The position numbers and the translations under genes were made by a program. Below, one piece after another: positions 2,546-9,752 of a stretch of 64,000 bases of DNA. This DNA is from a bacterium HR37. Lineage in GTDB: Bacteria; Desulfobacterota_D; UBA1144; Nemesobacterales; CSP1-2. The stretch spans positions 1-64,000 of the forward strand of contig BEIN01000007.1 of NCBI GenBank assembly GCA_002898375.1, given 5' to 3'. The notes under the pieces are model-generated. The model saw only the letters and a program-made list of their open reading frames with translations, had not been told where the DNA came from and made no database searches. Within the stretch, counting starts at the first letter, position 1, and every line of letters begins with the position of its first letter.

Positions 2546-2575
2546 GTGAACTACTCCCAGCTTACGCAGGGAGCT
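2546..2575 (-). ncRNA. Right end and probable omega RNA 3' scaffold of tnpB
   Basis: On the minus strand the tnpB stop lies inside a stem of CTCCC and GGGAG, followed by TAGTTCAC. In TnpB elements the omega RNA covers the 3' part of tnpB and this end and continues into flanking DNA as the guide. The guide here would begin CGAGAAGGGCAACTAC (2545-2530). The 5' limit of the RNA cannot be seen. Confidence 0.45.
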
Positions 2576-3690
2576 TCTCCTGGGCTAAGCCCAAGAAGGC
2601 TAGTTCCTAGCCTTAAAATATTACGTGACGCATTAATGTCTCTATCAAGAACAATATGACATTTATTGCAAATATGAACCCTATCAGAAAGCAATTTTGG
2701 AACCCTAGCACCACAATTGCTACAGTTCTGGCTTGTCCCCCTTGGAGCTACCCCAATAGCATGCTTACCAGCACTCTCAGCCTTGTAAGCTATGTATTGG
2801 AGAAACCTACCCCAGGAACAATCCCCTATAGACTTAGCAAGATTGCCATTTTGCATCATATTCTTTATTTTCAAATCCTCAAATGCAATCAGGTCATAGG
2901 TATCTACAAGGTATCTACTAACCTTATGAAGAAAATCCCTTCTCTGATTGACTATCTTACGATGAATTTTAGCAACCCTAACCATTGCCTTCTCTCTGGC
3001 CTTAGTTCCCTTCCTTTTTCTAGAAAACACCCTCTGGGCTTCGGCAAGTTTGGACTCAGTCCTACCAAGATACCTGGGATTCTCAATCTTAGCTCCATCA
3101 CTCAACGTTGCAAAAGCGTCTATACCAACATCAATCCCTACTGCATTCCTTATAGGAACTTTATCCTTTCTATCTGGAATCTCAAAACTAACTATCGCAT
3201 ACCACCTATCAATTTCTTTTTTAAGAGTAAGAGTCTTAAGTCTAGCACCCTCAGGAAAATTACGGTGCCTCTTAACCCTGATTATCCCTATCTTAGAAAT
3301 CTGAATCTTTCTATCACTAAGAAACTGCCACCCACTTTGAGGATAACAAAAACTCTTATACCAGTTTCTACCTTTAAATCTTGGAAACCCTGGCTTCTCC
3401 CCCATCTTAAGCCTTCTAAAGAAAGCCCTAAAATTCTTATCCAACCTTCTAAGAACATCTTGAAGTACCTGGGAATGAACCTCTTCAAACTCAGGTCTAA
3501 CCTGTTTGATTTCTACGAGAGAGTTAGCCTGCTCAGTATAGGTAACATGGTATCTGGCTTTTTGCCAAGCAGAAATCCTATGCAGAAGGGCAGAGTTATA
3601 GAGCTCTCTACAAAGCTCAAGAGTGGATTCAAGTTTTTGAAGATGTGTTTTATTGGGGTAGAGCCGGAATTTGTAACTAAGCCTCAACAT
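2551..3690 (-). CDS. tnpB: TnpB RNA-guided nuclease, catalytic residues intact
   Basis: This 379-residue protein is full length for TnpB, the RNA-guided DNA nuclease ancestral to Cas12. The start LSYKFRLYPNKTHLQKLEST is the typical opening. The RuvC-like residues are D187 (GIDVGIDAF), E271 (AFEDLKIKNM) and D351 (LDRDINASRN); zinc-finger cysteines are C323/C326 (CSNC) and C341/C344 (CNKC). The last codons overlap the right-end hairpin, where the guide RNA (omega RNA) of these elements is produced. The guide would extend past 2546 into the flanking PIN toxin sequence. There is no sign of frameshift or missing motif, so it is probably active. Confidence 0.92.
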   Translation of the reverse strand: MLRLSYKFRLYPNKTHLQKLESTLELCRELYNSALLHRISAWQKARYHVTYTEQANSLVEIKQVRPEFEEVHSQVLQDVLRRLDKNFRAFFRRLKMGEKPGFPRFKGRNWYKSFCYPQSGWQFLSDRKIQISKIGIIRVKRHRNFPEGARLKTLTLKKEIDRWYAIVSFEIPDRKDKVPIRNAVGIDVGIDAFATLSDGAKIENPRYLGRTESKLAEAQRVFSRKRKGTKAREKAMVRVAKIHRKIVNQRRDFLHKVSRYLVDTYDLIAFEDLKIKNMMQNGNLAKSIGDCSWGRFLQYIAYKAESAGKHAIGVAPRGTSQNCSNCGARVPKLLSDRVHICNKCHIVLDRDINASRNILRLGTSLLGLSPGEAPCVSWE

Positions 3691-3850: not shown

Positions 3851-4309
3851 CTACTTAAGGCCAATTCTTTTATGATAGCAGTAAGTTATAAACCACTCTA
3901 TGCTTTCCTCTCTAACAAAAACTGGTTCTATACTGTAACCACTTATAAATCTTATTGTATCTACTACTTCTAAATTTGAAGGATCAGCCATAGCAACAAC
4001 CAACTTCTTTGAACCACTTTCTACCTTAAATTTAACTGGTACAGCCCTATATCTTCTTGCAACATGTTCAGGTATAAGGCCAATAACACCCTCATCAACC
4101 AACTCCTTACCCAGATCTATACTTTGAGCACCATGTTGCTTGCTAAGAAACTCTATAAGTTCATCCGTACTAATATATTCAAGCCTGGTAAGAACCTGAC
4201 CTAACTTCTCCCCAGTCCTTTTTTGTATCCCTAACGCCTGATTAAGCTGCTCTCTATTAATAAGACCAGCTTCAATAAGTAACTCTCCTAAACGTTTACC
4301 CCGCATCAT
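3851..4309 (-). CDS. Stand-alone MshEN (GspE/PilB N-terminal) domain protein
   Basis: 152 residues match only the N-terminal domain of type II secretion/type IV pilus ATPases: MRGKRLGELLIEAGLINREQ and LNQALGIQKRTGEKLGQVL are the paired RLG(E)xL...GLI...QL motifs, and DPSNLEVVDTIRF is the later part of the domain. MshEN domains often bind cyclic di-GMP. No Walker motifs follow, so it cannot be a secretion ATPase; it is more likely a regulatory or adaptor subunit. It is the last gene of the minus-strand block after the sensor kinase, though 224 bases and an inverted repeat separate them. Tandem ATGs at 4309 and 4306 leave the start uncertain by one residue. Confidence 0.75.
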   Translation of the reverse strand: MMRGKRLGELLIEAGLINREQLNQALGIQKRTGEKLGQVLTRLEYISTDELIEFLSKQHGAQSIDLGKELVDEGVIGLIPEHVARRYRAVPVKFKVESGSKKLVVAMADPSNLEVVDTIRFISGYSIEPVFVREESIEWFITYCYHKRIGLK

Positions 4310-4533: not shown

Positions 4534-6903
4534 CTATAACACACTACCTGCCATCGATTTGGCAACTGAGCTAAATACGCTTAAAAACCTCTCCATTGTA
4601 AATGGCTTAAGAATATAAGCCCTACCCTCACCCTCTAAAAAACTATATACACTAGAGCTAACAATATCACCCGTAAGAAAAATAAAACCCTTAGCCATCT
4701 CAGGATCCACTTCCTTTACCCTCTTATATACCTCTATCCCATCTAAACCAGGCATATTAATATCACATATGATAAAATCATACCTTCCCCTTCCTAACTT
4801 CTCTAACCCCTCCCTACCATCATACGCCTTATCAACCCTATACCCCTCATAAGCAAGTATACCCTCAATAAGCTCCACTATCGATTCCTCATCATCAATC
4901 ACAAGAACACTCCCCCTAACCCCCACCTCCTGAACCCTACGCTCACTAACCTCCCCCTCTACCCCTACCCCCTCAATTAAATCAACCACAGGAAACTCAA
5001 CCACAAAAGTAGCACCACCTTCACAATCACCCAAATAAATCCTGCCCCCATGAGCCTCCACTATACCATATGAAACACTCAACCCAAGCCCAGTTCCCTT
5101 CCCCACAGGCTTTGTGGTAAAAAAAGGCTCAAATACCCTATCCCTATACTCAACAGGTATTCCAGGACCTGTATCAGAAAATACCACCCTTATCATACCA
5201 CCACACACCTCTGTCCTTATCACTAACTTCCTCTCCCCTCCCCACCCCACCATGGCATCCCAAGCATTGTTTATTATGTTTAAAAAAACCTGCTGCACCT
5301 CATTGGCATTAACCACAGTCCTTGGTAAATCCCTCGATAAATCCTTTACAATCTCTATACCATTTGCCCTAAACTTATAAACCACAAGCTCAAGTGTATC
5401 CTCAATAAGACCATTTATATCAACATAGCCCCTCTCCTCAGACTTATACCTCCTTGCAAACCTCAATAAACTACCAACTACCCTGCTTGCACCCTCGCCA
5501 GCATCCAAAATCTTCTTTAACTTATCCCTTACCTCGCTATCCAAACTAGAACGATTTAATAAAAGTTGAGAAAACCCTACAATAGGTGTAAGCTGATTGT
5601 TAATCTCATGTGCTACCCCAGAAATCATCGTCCCTAAAGCAGCAAGCTTTTCAGCTTGAATAAGCTCCCCCTGAAGTAATTCCCTCTCCCTCTCAAGCCT
5701 AACCCTCTCCGTTACATCCTCAACTAGGATAATAAACTCCTCCCCATGAAATATGCTAGAAAGCATAATATCCAACACCCTCTCACCCTTTTCTGGATGG
5801 TTATATCTGACCTTTGATAATTCTAAAATCTTATCCCCTCCTATAACAGAACTTGCCTGCTGCTCAAAACCCTCTATGGGAAGCACCTCATTAATACCCC
5901 TACCTAAAACATCCTTTACACCCAAAACCTCCTGAAATAAAAAATTTGCAATTAGAATCTTCTTATTCTTATCTAATACCGCTAGACCAATAGGCAAAAA
6001 TGAAATTGTATTGCGATACCTCTCCTCTGCCTCCTGAATCCTTCTTATAAACTTTGCGTTTTCGATTTTAAGAGCAAGGTTTCTTGCAAAAGTAACGGCT
6101 AGAGATTCATCCTCTTTGGTAAAAACCCCATTTTCCTCCTTTTCGATAAAATACAGTCCACCATAGACTTTACCATCTCTTCCCACTACTGGAACTCCTA
6201 AAAAAGTCTTCATTATCGGATGATTAGGTAGAAATGGTAACTGTCTTGGGTCTTTCGTTAAATCATCTAACCTGATAACTTCTCCCTCCTTGATTATAGC
6301 CCCCAAAAGACCTCTACCCTGAGGCAGGTCTCCAATAAGATTTACCTCATCTTCACTTAAACCACTATGGATAAATTCAATAAGCCTTCCTCTCTCATCA
6401 GTAAGCCCTATAGCACCGTATCTAGCTTGAATAAGCTCTCTTAAAGCAGAAATCCACTCTTTTAGCACTCTCCTTTCATCTTGAAAAGCCAGTATTTGTA
6501 AAAGCCTCAAGCTAATATTATAAAGTTCCTCAATTCTCTTACCTTTCTTACTGGTCTCCTCTTGCAGAGAAGCAAGATGACGAATTACCCGCTCACGAGA
6601 ACGAATAATTTGTCCTATCTCATTATTAGGAATATCCTTCTCAGGAATAAATTTCTTCTCTTCGTTACCAGAGATAAGATGTCTATCAGCCTCTATAATC
6701 TGGCCTATTGGGCGCAAAACTGTTTTCTCAAGATAAATCCAAAGGGGAAGCAATAGAAGGATAAGAAGTGAAACCACTGAAATAACATAAGAAATAGCGT
6801 AATCCTCCCCTGTTGCCCTAAGCAATAAAAAGAAAAGAAGGAGTACTAAAGGAAATGAAACCATTACATTTATAGCTCCATAGAGTAAAAACCTTAGTCG
6901 CAT
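4534..6903 (-). CDS. Hybrid sensor histidine kinase, start controlled by a repeat tract
   Basis: 789 residues from ATG 6903: two membrane helices (about 8-30 and 36-58), HAMP (58-110), GAF (about 135-285), PAS (about 295-400), HisKA with H432 in GVAHEINNQ, HATPase with the N box LNIINNAWDA (541-550), DTGPGI (577-582) and GKGTGLGLS (601-609), then a receiver domain with D670/D671, phospho-acceptor D714 (CDINMP) and K766. It should autophosphorylate and pass phosphate to its own receiver; no DNA-binding output is present. The gene follows the mini sigma-54 gene. The coupled start (ATG 7012, good Shine-Dalgarno) is out of frame because of the GTGA tract, and ATG 6903 has only a weak AAGG before it. 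Expression is therefore probably phase variable. Confidence 0.85.
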   Translation of the reverse strand: MRLRFLLYGAINVMVSFPLVLLLFFLLLRATGEDYAISYVISVVSLLILLLLPLWIYLEKTVLRPIGQIIEADRHLISGNEEKKFIPEKDIPNNEIGQIIRSRERVIRHLASLQEETSKKGKRIEELYNISLRLLQILAFQDERRVLKEWISALRELIQARYGAIGLTDERGRLIEFIHSGLSEDEVNLIGDLPQGRGLLGAIIKEGEVIRLDDLTKDPRQLPFLPNHPIMKTFLGVPVVGRDGKVYGGLYFIEKEENGVFTKEDESLAVTFARNLALKIENAKFIRRIQEAEERYRNTISFLPIGLAVLDKNKKILIANFLFQEVLGVKDVLGRGINEVLPIEGFEQQASSVIGGDKILELSKVRYNHPEKGERVLDIMLSSIFHGEEFIILVEDVTERVRLERERELLQGELIQAEKLAALGTMISGVAHEINNQLTPIVGFSQLLLNRSSLDSEVRDKLKKILDAGEGASRVVGSLLRFARRYKSEERGYVDINGLIEDTLELVVYKFRANGIEIVKDLSRDLPRTVVNANEVQQVFLNIINNAWDAMVGWGGERKLVIRTEVCGGMIRVVFSDTGPGIPVEYRDRVFEPFFTTKPVGKGTGLGLSVSYGIVEAHGGRIYLGDCEGGATFVVEFPVVDLIEGVGVEGEVSERRVQEVGVRGSVLVIDDEESIVELIEGILAYEGYRVDKAYDGREGLEKLGRGRYDFIICDINMPGLDGIEVYKRVKEVDPEMAKGFIFLTGDIVSSSVYSFLEGEGRAYILKPFTMERFLSVFSSVAKSMAGSVL

Positions 6904-7012
6904 CCTTGATACTCTCGTGAGTGAGTGAGTGAGTGAGTGAGTGAGTGAGTGAGTGAGTGAGTGAGTGCAAACTCATGCCAGTTTTGTTTTTCCATTCTTT
7001 TTCTATTTCCAT
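6818..7012 (-). other. Out-of-frame upstream reading frame of the kinase gene
   Basis: ATG 7012 follows the sigma-54-like gene's stop by one base (TGAGATG) and has AGAGGGTGAG as Shine-Dalgarno. It encodes MEIEKEWKNKTGMSLH, four SLTH repeats from the GTGA tract, then an unrelated tail that ends inside the kinase gene at 6818. The distance to ATG 6903 is 109 bases, one more than a multiple of three. I read this as the present OFF (or reduced) state of the kinase gene, with 6903 as a possible fallback start. Confidence 0.6.
6917..6967. repeat. (GTGA)12.75 tetranucleotide tract at the kinase 5' end
   Basis: Twelve perfect GTGA units plus GTG, 51 bases with no mismatch (TCAC on the coding minus strand). 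No stop codon is possible in any frame of this unit. It begins 14 bases upstream of ATG 6903 and lies inside the frame that opens at ATG 7012. Loss of one unit or gain of two would join ATG 7012 in frame to the kinase. Slipped-strand change of such tracts is the known mechanism of contingency loci. Confidence 0.95.
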
Positions 7013-7013
7013 C

Positions 7014-7712
7014 TCACCCTCTATATCTATAAGATGGAATTCCTAAGAGCTTACGATACTTTGCAACAGTACGTCTTGAGATCTTTAATCCCTGCAAATT
7101 TAAACAGGTAGCTATCACTTCATCACTAAAAGCCTCTTCTTCATTGTTTATAATGCTTAAAATAGCTCTACATATGGTTTCTTTTCTTCTACCACTACCT
7201 AAAAGCTGTCTCATTGATATCTCACCAAAGGGGGTTAAAACACGTTTCCTTCTGGTTACCCTACTTACAATGGATTCATGAAACCCGCTTAGCTTCGCTA
7301 GAGCCCGAATTGTAAGAGGCAGAGGCAAATCACTAATACCCAAAACATAGGAACGCTGAACTTCGATTAATTTTTGTGAAACCCTTTCTAGTATCTCCCT
7401 CCTTTTACTAATGCCCTTTATTATCCAGGCAGCCTCATTATACAACTTTACTTCCTCTTTTGAAGCTTGATCCCCCAAAGGTTTAAGTCTTAAGTTTGGT
7501 AATCCTTTATCATTTATAAAAAAATTATAATTCCCATTCCAATACCTGACAATCACATCACACTCTAAAGGAACATCAATAGGGAAAGGAAGAACCAAAT
7601 CCTCCTCTAAGAATGGATTCTCAATTAACTTTTCCTTAACAAACAGGATAAGCTCAAGCTTCCCAAACTCAAGAAGAGATATAGCCATATGAACCATAGG
7701 GGTTACACGCAT
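7014..7712 (-). CDS. Miniature sigma-54 (RpoN-like) protein, 232 residues
   Basis: Sigma-54 factors are usually about 400-500 residues; this one has 232. Residues 1-37 match the second part of Region I (VTPMVHMAISLL...IENPFLEED). Residues 52-80 match the late core-binding part (VIVR...NDKGLPNLRLKPLG). Residues 93-125 match the WIIKGISKRREILERV helix, 136-175 the helix-turn-helix (FHESIVSRVTRRKRVLTPFG), and 212-221 the RpoN box (SRRTVAKYRK; usual ARRTVAKYRE). Region II and the first half of the core-binding domain are absent. A stop codon two codons upstream of ATG 7712 rules out a longer start. It would bind -12/-24 type promoters; whether it still binds RNA polymerase is open. It is coupled to the phase-variable kinase gene. 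Confidence 0.8.
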   Translation of the reverse strand: MRVTPMVHMAISLLEFGKLELILFVKEKLIENPFLEEDLVLPFPIDVPLECDVIVRYWNGNYNFFINDKGLPNLRLKPLGDQASKEEVKLYNEAAWIIKGISKRREILERVSQKLIEVQRSYVLGISDLPLPLTIRALAKLSGFHESIVSRVTRRKRVLTPFGEISMRQLLGSGRRKETICRAILSIINNEEEAFSDEVIATCLNLQGLKISRRTVAKYRKLLGIPSYRYRG

Positions 7713-8068: not shown

Positions 8069-8543
8069 GTTGCTCTGTTGCAAAGATATAGATAAGAAGC
8101 CTCCTTAAGGTATAAATTAGACATGGTTAAGTACACCCTAAGGAGGCAAAACAGATTTAATAGTAATTTTAATCTTAAGGGGTTTGTGGAAGTGGGAATA
8201 TGATATTTGGACTTCCAATAAGGGTTATTCCTCCCATAAGGCGTGGAGGGGGTATAAAGAGTTGGAATAGGATATTGGCTTATATGGTCTATAGGATTTC
8301 AAAATGGATGGGGGTTTATGGCAAGAGGTGGCTTTGTGAGACAATTAACTCAGTGATTAAGAGAAAGTTTGGAGACAGCATAAGGGAAAGAAAGTGGGGA
8401 AATAAAAAGAAGATCGTATCCCTTATGACTATAGTTTATAACATACATGTGATTGTAAGGGATGGAGGGGAAAACCAATTCTTGCTATTACTTGTTTTCC
8501 TCTCATTTAAATCAATTAAAAATGATGTTTGCAACAGAGCAAC
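8069..8543 (+). mobile_element. Internally deleted insertion sequence with 16-bp terminal repeats
   Basis: GTTGCTCTGTTGCAAA (8069-8084) and its exact complement (8528-8543) bound a 475-bp element. Inside, the left end has a subterminal hairpin (8099-8147), then only the C-terminal part of a DDE transposase. Transposases of this kind are about 300 residues, so roughly the first half to two thirds is gone and the element cannot move itself. No clear target duplication is visible. An inverted partial copy lies at 1838-1914. Confidence 0.75.
8099..8147. repeat. Subterminal hairpin of the insertion sequence
   Basis: GCCTCCTTAAGGTATA (8099-8114) pairs with GTACACCCTAAGGAGGC (8131-8147) with a few mismatches. 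The same structure, perfectly paired, sits next to the same terminal repeat at 1838-1885. It may stop transcription entering the element or help transposase binding; this is inference. Confidence 0.55.
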
Positions 8544-8595
8544 CCTTGATAATAACCTTAAAAAGTTTATAAATTCGCCTGTTAAAGGAGGCTAG
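8200..8595 (+). pseudogene. C-terminal fragment of a DDE (IS4/IS5-type) transposase
   Basis: The frame reads SWNRILAYMVYRISKWMGVY and then ETINSVIKRKFGD, the third catalytic Glu with the E-x6-K pattern of DDE transposases, followed by IVYNIHVIV, typical of the IS4/IS5 C terminus. The first two catalytic Asp residues are missing. After about 8470 the frame runs on through the right terminal repeat and stops outside the element at 8595, so the original stop is lost as well. It is not a working gene. Confidence 0.7.
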
Positions 8596-9383: not shown

Positions 9384-9752
9384 TTATCCTGCTCTACCCT
9401 TTTCATAAACTGTAATTCCCTCTCTAAGAATCTCCCTTCTTAACCTCTTATTTACCTTTCTTAAATTAACAATATTAAATTTTAGAAGAGTTGAAACCTC
9501 CTCATCCAATATCTCACCGGGAAATACTATATCCCCTTTACAATCAATAGCTATATCTATATCTGAGGTTTTCCTATAGTCACCTCTTGCCCTAGAACCA
9601 GATATTATAATCCTCTCCGGATTTAAATACCTTACAATTACACGAACAATATTTTCTAATAAATCGCCTGGCAAACCCGGTTTCCTAAATACGCGCTCAT
9701 CCTTTTTTAAAGAGGAACTTATTTTGTACGTTTTACCCCAAGACATCAACAA
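9384..9752 (-). CDS. MNT-domain nucleotidyltransferase (MntA-like)
   Basis: 122 residues with SGSRARGDYRKTSDIDIAID, the complete GSRARG...SDIDIAID signature of minimal nucleotidyltransferases, and a later strand, TLLKFNIVNL, that normally supplies the third acidic residue (here not obvious). MntA enzymes AMPylate their HEPN partner and act as antitoxins. The partner gene next to it is truncated, so this copy may be an antitoxin left without its toxin. The first about 25 residues are poorly conserved and a later start is possible. Confidence 0.7.
   Translation of the reverse strand: MLMSWGKTYKISSSLKKDERVFRKPGLPGDLLENIVRVIVRYLNPERIIISGSRARGDYRKTSDIDIAIDCKGDIVFPGEILDEEVSTLLKFNIVNLRKVNKRLRREILREGITVYEKGRAG

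Follow-up and report, generated by a model that had tools for sequence, protein, structure and literature searches.

The locus occupies positions 4,534–7,712 of the window, i.e. of the whole 64,000-nucleotide stretch of DNA that was analyzed, and includes a short second sigma-54-like gene, a gene for a hybrid histidine kinase and a perfect tetranucleotide tract adjoining the kinase start. Both genes sit on the minus strand, a detail added here to the first-pass annotation. The features are listed below in the direction of reading:

7014–7712, minus strand: short second sigma-54-like gene encoding 232 aa (Pfam, NCBIfam), with its TGA stop at 7016–7014
6821–7012, minus strand: upstream ORF of 64 codons, which starts at ATG 7012, enters the tract and is followed by the stop TAA 6820–6818
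6966–6980, minus strand: TGGCATGAGTTTGCA, a TGGCAT...TTGCA motif resembling a sigma-54 -24/-12 promoter, directly upstream of the tract
6917–6967, minus strand: tetranucleotide tract, (GTGA)12.75 on the plus strand and (TCAC)n on the coding strand
6894–6903, minus strand: ATGCGACTAA, the kinase start and the TAA at which the upstream frame terminates after gain of one or loss of two units; candidate stop-start reinitiation site
4534–6903, minus strand: hybrid histidine kinase of 789 aa, counted from ATG 6903 (Pfam, NCBIfam)

The short sigma-54-like protein keeps the activator-interacting domain (PF00309, 1e-5) and the DNA-binding domain (PF04552, 3.6e-29) with an RpoN box reading SRRTVAKYRK, and it is devoid of most of the core-binding domain; the TIGR02395 profile gave 137 bits, its cut-off being 277, and was aligned only from profile position 233. 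The gene start has no Shine-Dalgarno (SD) sequence. In comparison with full-length RpoN, the protein has an 8-residue gap between the helix-turn-helix and RpoN-box regions. The canonical RpoN of the genome, about 500 aa long, is encoded elsewhere (match C15:36056-36526), and among 58 genomes of the phylum a second sigma-54 match was present only in G000. Sigma-54 proteins of phages and plasmids mostly did not correspond to the short protein from end to end: among the matches listed, the majority spanned its residues 52–231 at approximately 30% identity. Sigma-54 signaling is prominent in this genome, as indicated by at least 11 strong matches to sigma-54 activator ATPases and 48 -24/-12 sites with canonical spacing.

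The kinase carries HisKA (PF00512), HATPase_c (PF02518) and receiver (PF00072) domains scoring over the Pfam cut-offs, plus a GAF domain, and two hydrophobic segments were recognized by eye at its N-terminus. Its codon usage is typical of the genome. The search for orthologues of the kinase N-terminus in the 58 phylum genomes, GTDB contigs and viral contigs returned its own genome only, and an exact 25-base pattern taken from the kinase start had no match in the viral contigs. Just downstream of the kinase, on the same strand, lies a gene for a stand-alone MshE N-terminal (cyclic-di-GMP-binding) domain protein (3851–4309). According to NCBIfam, the sigma-54/kinase locus has a TnpB RNA-guided endonuclease gene on one flank (2551–3690) and an IS5-family transposase fragment on the other (8200–8595), and a gene at 9384–9752 gave a weak match, below the cut-off, to MntA-like nucleotidyltransferase antitoxins.

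The tract consists of 51 bases, or 12.75 units at 100% match, with a unit length of four, which is not a multiple of three. Two properties ascribed to it in the first-pass annotation were recovered: it stands, without a single mismatch, just before the kinase ATG (13 bases lie between it and ATG 6903, the A being 14 positions away), and neither the tract nor its unit can bring in a stop, with zero stops found in the three coding frames. On the coding strand it is translated as SLTH-SLTH in all three frames, while the opposite orientation, with GTGA on the coding strand, would put a TGA in every frame; thus, only the TCAC orientation leaves the frames open. The pattern GTGAGTGAGTGA had 10 overlapping matches against 0.01 expected from shuffles. 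No second (GTGA)5-or-longer tract was found in the 2.42-Mb genome, nor was there any elsewhere among the 58 phylum genomes. The background of short repeats was estimated from 733 kb of sampled sequence (30% of the genome), in which the repeats with units of 2 to 8 above the threshold were this tract and one hexamer of 3.7 copies, the rest being homopolymers of nine.

Upstream of the tract, ATG 7012 follows the stop of the sigma-54-like gene (TGA 7016–7014) after a single base and is preceded by AGAGGGTGAG, in agreement with the first-pass description of a coupled start. As a measure of SD strength, the energy of the duplex formed with the anti-Shine-Dalgarno tail was calculated for 193 of the genome's genes, whose best starts had a median of -7.1 kcal/mol. 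ATG 7012 reached -6.3 kcal/mol, a value matched or exceeded by 14% of internal ATGs, and ATG 6903 only -3.4 kcal/mol, with 39% of internal ATGs being as strong; a later in-frame kinase start, ATG 6864, had -5.6 kcal/mol, and either of the two kinase starts yields a protein with all its domains. Judged by these energies against those of genes and internal ATGs, ATG 7012 looks like a gene start and ATG 6903 is weak, making the former a credible candidate for a translation start upstream of the tract.

The two ATGs are separated by 109 nt, so that in the allele as assembled the frame of ATG 7012 is offset from that of the kinase by one base, and the ATG 7012 frame is open through the tract, both as originally described. 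When the unit number was changed in silico from -3 to +3, three frame states were obtained, recurring with a period of three. Loss of one unit or gain of two fused the frames, as had been predicted, into a product of 824 or 828 aa. With the assembled number or a change of three units, the upstream frame overlapped the kinase start by approximately 80 nt and stopped out of frame at 6818. A third state, absent from the first-pass annotation, appeared with one unit more or two units less, where the upstream frame ended 7–9 nt into the kinase; in the +1 version the upstream ORF is 40 codons long and ends at TAA 6896–6894, within ATGCGACTAA. Such a stop-start overlap could permit reinitiation, and the output may therefore be graded. 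Whatever the frame state, initiation at ATG 6903 yields the whole kinase, with both hydrophobic segments and all domains, so that a full protein does not depend on the fusion.

The same layout, i.e. a start, a few codons, (TCAC)n and a hydrophobic segment, is present in other, distant bacteria. When public genomes were scanned for (TCAC)8, at least 120 loci were obtained. Among the matches listed, 8 of the 102 TCAC-oriented tracts were closely flanked by a strong ATG upstream and a long hydrophobic frame downstream, as opposed to 0.6% of points taken at random from the same public DNA, which corresponds to an approximately 13-fold enrichment; several of the qualifying tracts share one genome, so that the independent cases are fewer than eight. 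The tract of the window is included when the SD limit is set at -6 or lower and drops out at -7 or lower. Ten start-proximal loci were further picked by eye (L099, L129, L158, L103, L084, L184, L150, L165, L180 and L091); relative to the start nearest to the tract, the following frame was in register in two of them and out of register in eight. Where these loci had Pfam matches, most of the products, among the matches listed, resembled proteins that are secreted or sit at the surface (RCC1-like, Ig-like, RHS, subtilase and Por-secretion types), and a kinase was encoded in none.

One Planctomycete MAG (G058) contained at least five distinct loci with an SD, an ATG and (TCAC)n, and zero control matches. 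Two homologous loci of this MAG have identical flanks and differ in unit number (20.5 and 13.5), one being in frame and the other out of frame, which fits the expectation for a slipping contingency tract; by analogy, this pair lends the strongest, albeit indirect, support to reading the window locus as a contingency locus. The G058 genes for RCC1-like secreted proteins with start-proximal (TCAC)n were located at L099 1667–1733, L129 4559–4640 and 7090–7128, and L158 2575–2628, and unit numbers differ among their tracts. In Saprospiraceae, two genes with similar starts (MKKFIK and MKNFIK) have (TCAC)n before a hydrophobic segment (L103 4881–4917 and L084 3591–3632), again with one of the pair in frame and the other out.

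Taken as a whole, we consider it probable, with moderate confidence, that the window carries a simple-sequence contingency locus acting on a membrane hybrid histidine kinase. The contingency-gene architecture claimed in the first-pass annotation is supported by the gene-like ribosome-binding site at ATG 7012 and by the recurrence of the layout over random points. The claim of an on/off switch had to be narrowed: the anatomy is that of a contingency gene, but a strict on/off mode cannot be claimed, since ATG 6903 encodes a complete kinase. In the proposed mechanism, slipped-strand mispairing would alter the number of TCAC units between the coupled start ATG 7012 and the kinase body, and the amount of kinase would differ heritably and reversibly between cells, following the unit number. 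With one unit less or two more (fused frames), ribosomes that have finished the sigma-54-like gene would restart at ATG 7012 and read the SLTH-repeat N-terminus into the kinase, giving the 824- or 828-aa protein at high output. In the +1 or -2 state, the upstream frame would stop beside ATG 6903 and reinitiation would give an intermediate output, and in the assembled state the output would be low, with independent initiation only, either at the weak ATG 6903 or at a later ATG such as 6864. The allele behind this scheme comes from one assembly with one unit number (12.75); the arrangement of starts and frames would predict that the tract slips within the population, that ATG 7012 is used and that the outputs are graded.

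The alternative that survives best is a neutral microsatellite in the leader, in which case the kinase would always be made from ATG 6903 (or 6864), ATG 7012 would be unused or give a meaningless peptide, and the unit number would have no effect. It draws on the GAGAG found 8 nt upstream of ATG 6903, a start that by itself gives the full kinase, and on the frequent intergenic position of comparable tracts elsewhere: 36 of the 75 tracts lying away from locus ends looked intergenic among the matches listed, so that the position of such a tract next to a gene may be fortuitous. Moreover, retention of the tract is not shown by any orthologue, none having been found in the genomes searched. Against it, the tract has no equal in a genome almost without short repeats, and it lies in the sole orientation that keeps the frames open. 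It also stands downstream of a gene-like start and ahead of the first hydrophobic segment, a placement shared by approximately 0.6% of random points, also when these are taken from the genome of the window. We therefore regard the neutral explanation as possible, yet rather unlikely.

An effect at the level of the transcript appears improbable. According to this explanation, TGGCATGAGTTTGCA would be a sigma-54 promoter with transcription starting inside the tract, and the units would set the leader length of a kinase-only transcript translated from ATG 6903. In its favor, boxes close to the -24/-12 consensus stand right next to the tract, the operon includes a sigma-54 paralogue, and the canonical form of such sites is abundant in the genome, but the GG-to-GC spacing in TGGCATGAGTTTGCA is 9 instead of the canonical 10, and this spacing was seen only three times in the genome, which is no more than the background. 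The sigma-54 promoter at this site was set low because the spacing of 9 is not enriched in the genome, and the promoter likeness is probably due to chance. Sigma-70-like promoters and terminators around the locus occurred at the shuffle level only. Finally, an assembly artefact (the true allele being fused) or decay of both genes into pseudogenes in a transposon-flanked region is very improbable: despite the draft state of the assembly (33 contigs), the TnpB gene and IS5 transposase fragment on the flanks and a short sigma-54 lacking an SD and most of the core-binding domain, a typical short read is longer than the 51 bases of the tract, the ORFs of 232 and 789 codons are intact together with HisKA, HATPase, receiver and RpoN box, and the codon usage of the kinase is normal for the genome.

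Should the contingency reading be true, an uncultured lineage would have a tetranucleotide contingency tract acting on a hybrid sensor kinase. Repeat-driven phase variation, for which most studies have dealt with host-adapted pathogens and with surface structures, would then be extended to environmental signaling. A bolder version would combine two propositions, namely, that a three-level switch (fused, reinitiating and blocked) adjusts how much kinase is present relative to the co-encoded short sigma-54, with bet-hedging of a whole signaling output in an uncultured lineage, and that start-proximal (TCAC)n tracts form a widespread undescribed contingency class; in this combined form we hold it to be doubtful.

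Alternative starts in different frames are a feature of lic1 in Haemophilus influenzae, which the window locus shares. The locus resembles lic1A, lic2A, mod and other tetranucleotide contingency genes of this organism in having a perfect, stop-free, start-proximal tetranucleotide tract with a unit that is not a multiple of three and a tetrapeptide repeat at the N-terminus, which is SLTH here. The tetranucleotide tracts of H. influenzae are located at or just after the start codons, with two exceptions (PMC2651432). In contrast to H. influenzae, the unit here is TCAC, the start is coupled to the preceding gene, switching is a prediction from sequence, and the gene that would be affected encodes a hybrid histidine kinase, not a surface-modifying enzyme or a methyltransferase. 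The picked (TCAC)n loci from the Planctomycete, Bacteroidota and others share the order of start, few codons, tract and hydrophobic segment, often with the start out of frame, but those with a Pfam match encode secreted or surface-like proteins, in contrast to the kinase of the window. No literature naming a TCAC or GTGA repeat in phase variation was found, which, the coverage being incomplete, is weak evidence of novelty.

The first-pass annotation also held that such switching would be unusual for a signaling gene, and this holds only in part, since phase-variable signaling genes are already on record. The sensor kinase gene bvgS of Bordetella pertussis is phase-variable through a C6/C7 tract (PMC1891110) and, like the gene described here, has a reading frame dependent on a repeat tract; the bvgS tract, however, is a short homopolymer within the coding region, which truncates the protein, in contrast to a long tetranucleotide tract at the start with an alternative start downstream. 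In Campylobacter jejuni, flgS and flgR are phase variable and belong to the RpoN pathway (PMC3930126), so that the window locus is similar to them as a candidate phase-variable two-component gene beside a sigma-54 function, although flgR has homopolymer tracts inside the coding sequence and works with the canonical RpoN, while the neighbor here is a short sigma-54 paralogue. In view of these systems, the locus is a good candidate for a known kind of contingency locus with an uncommon target and an extra frame state.
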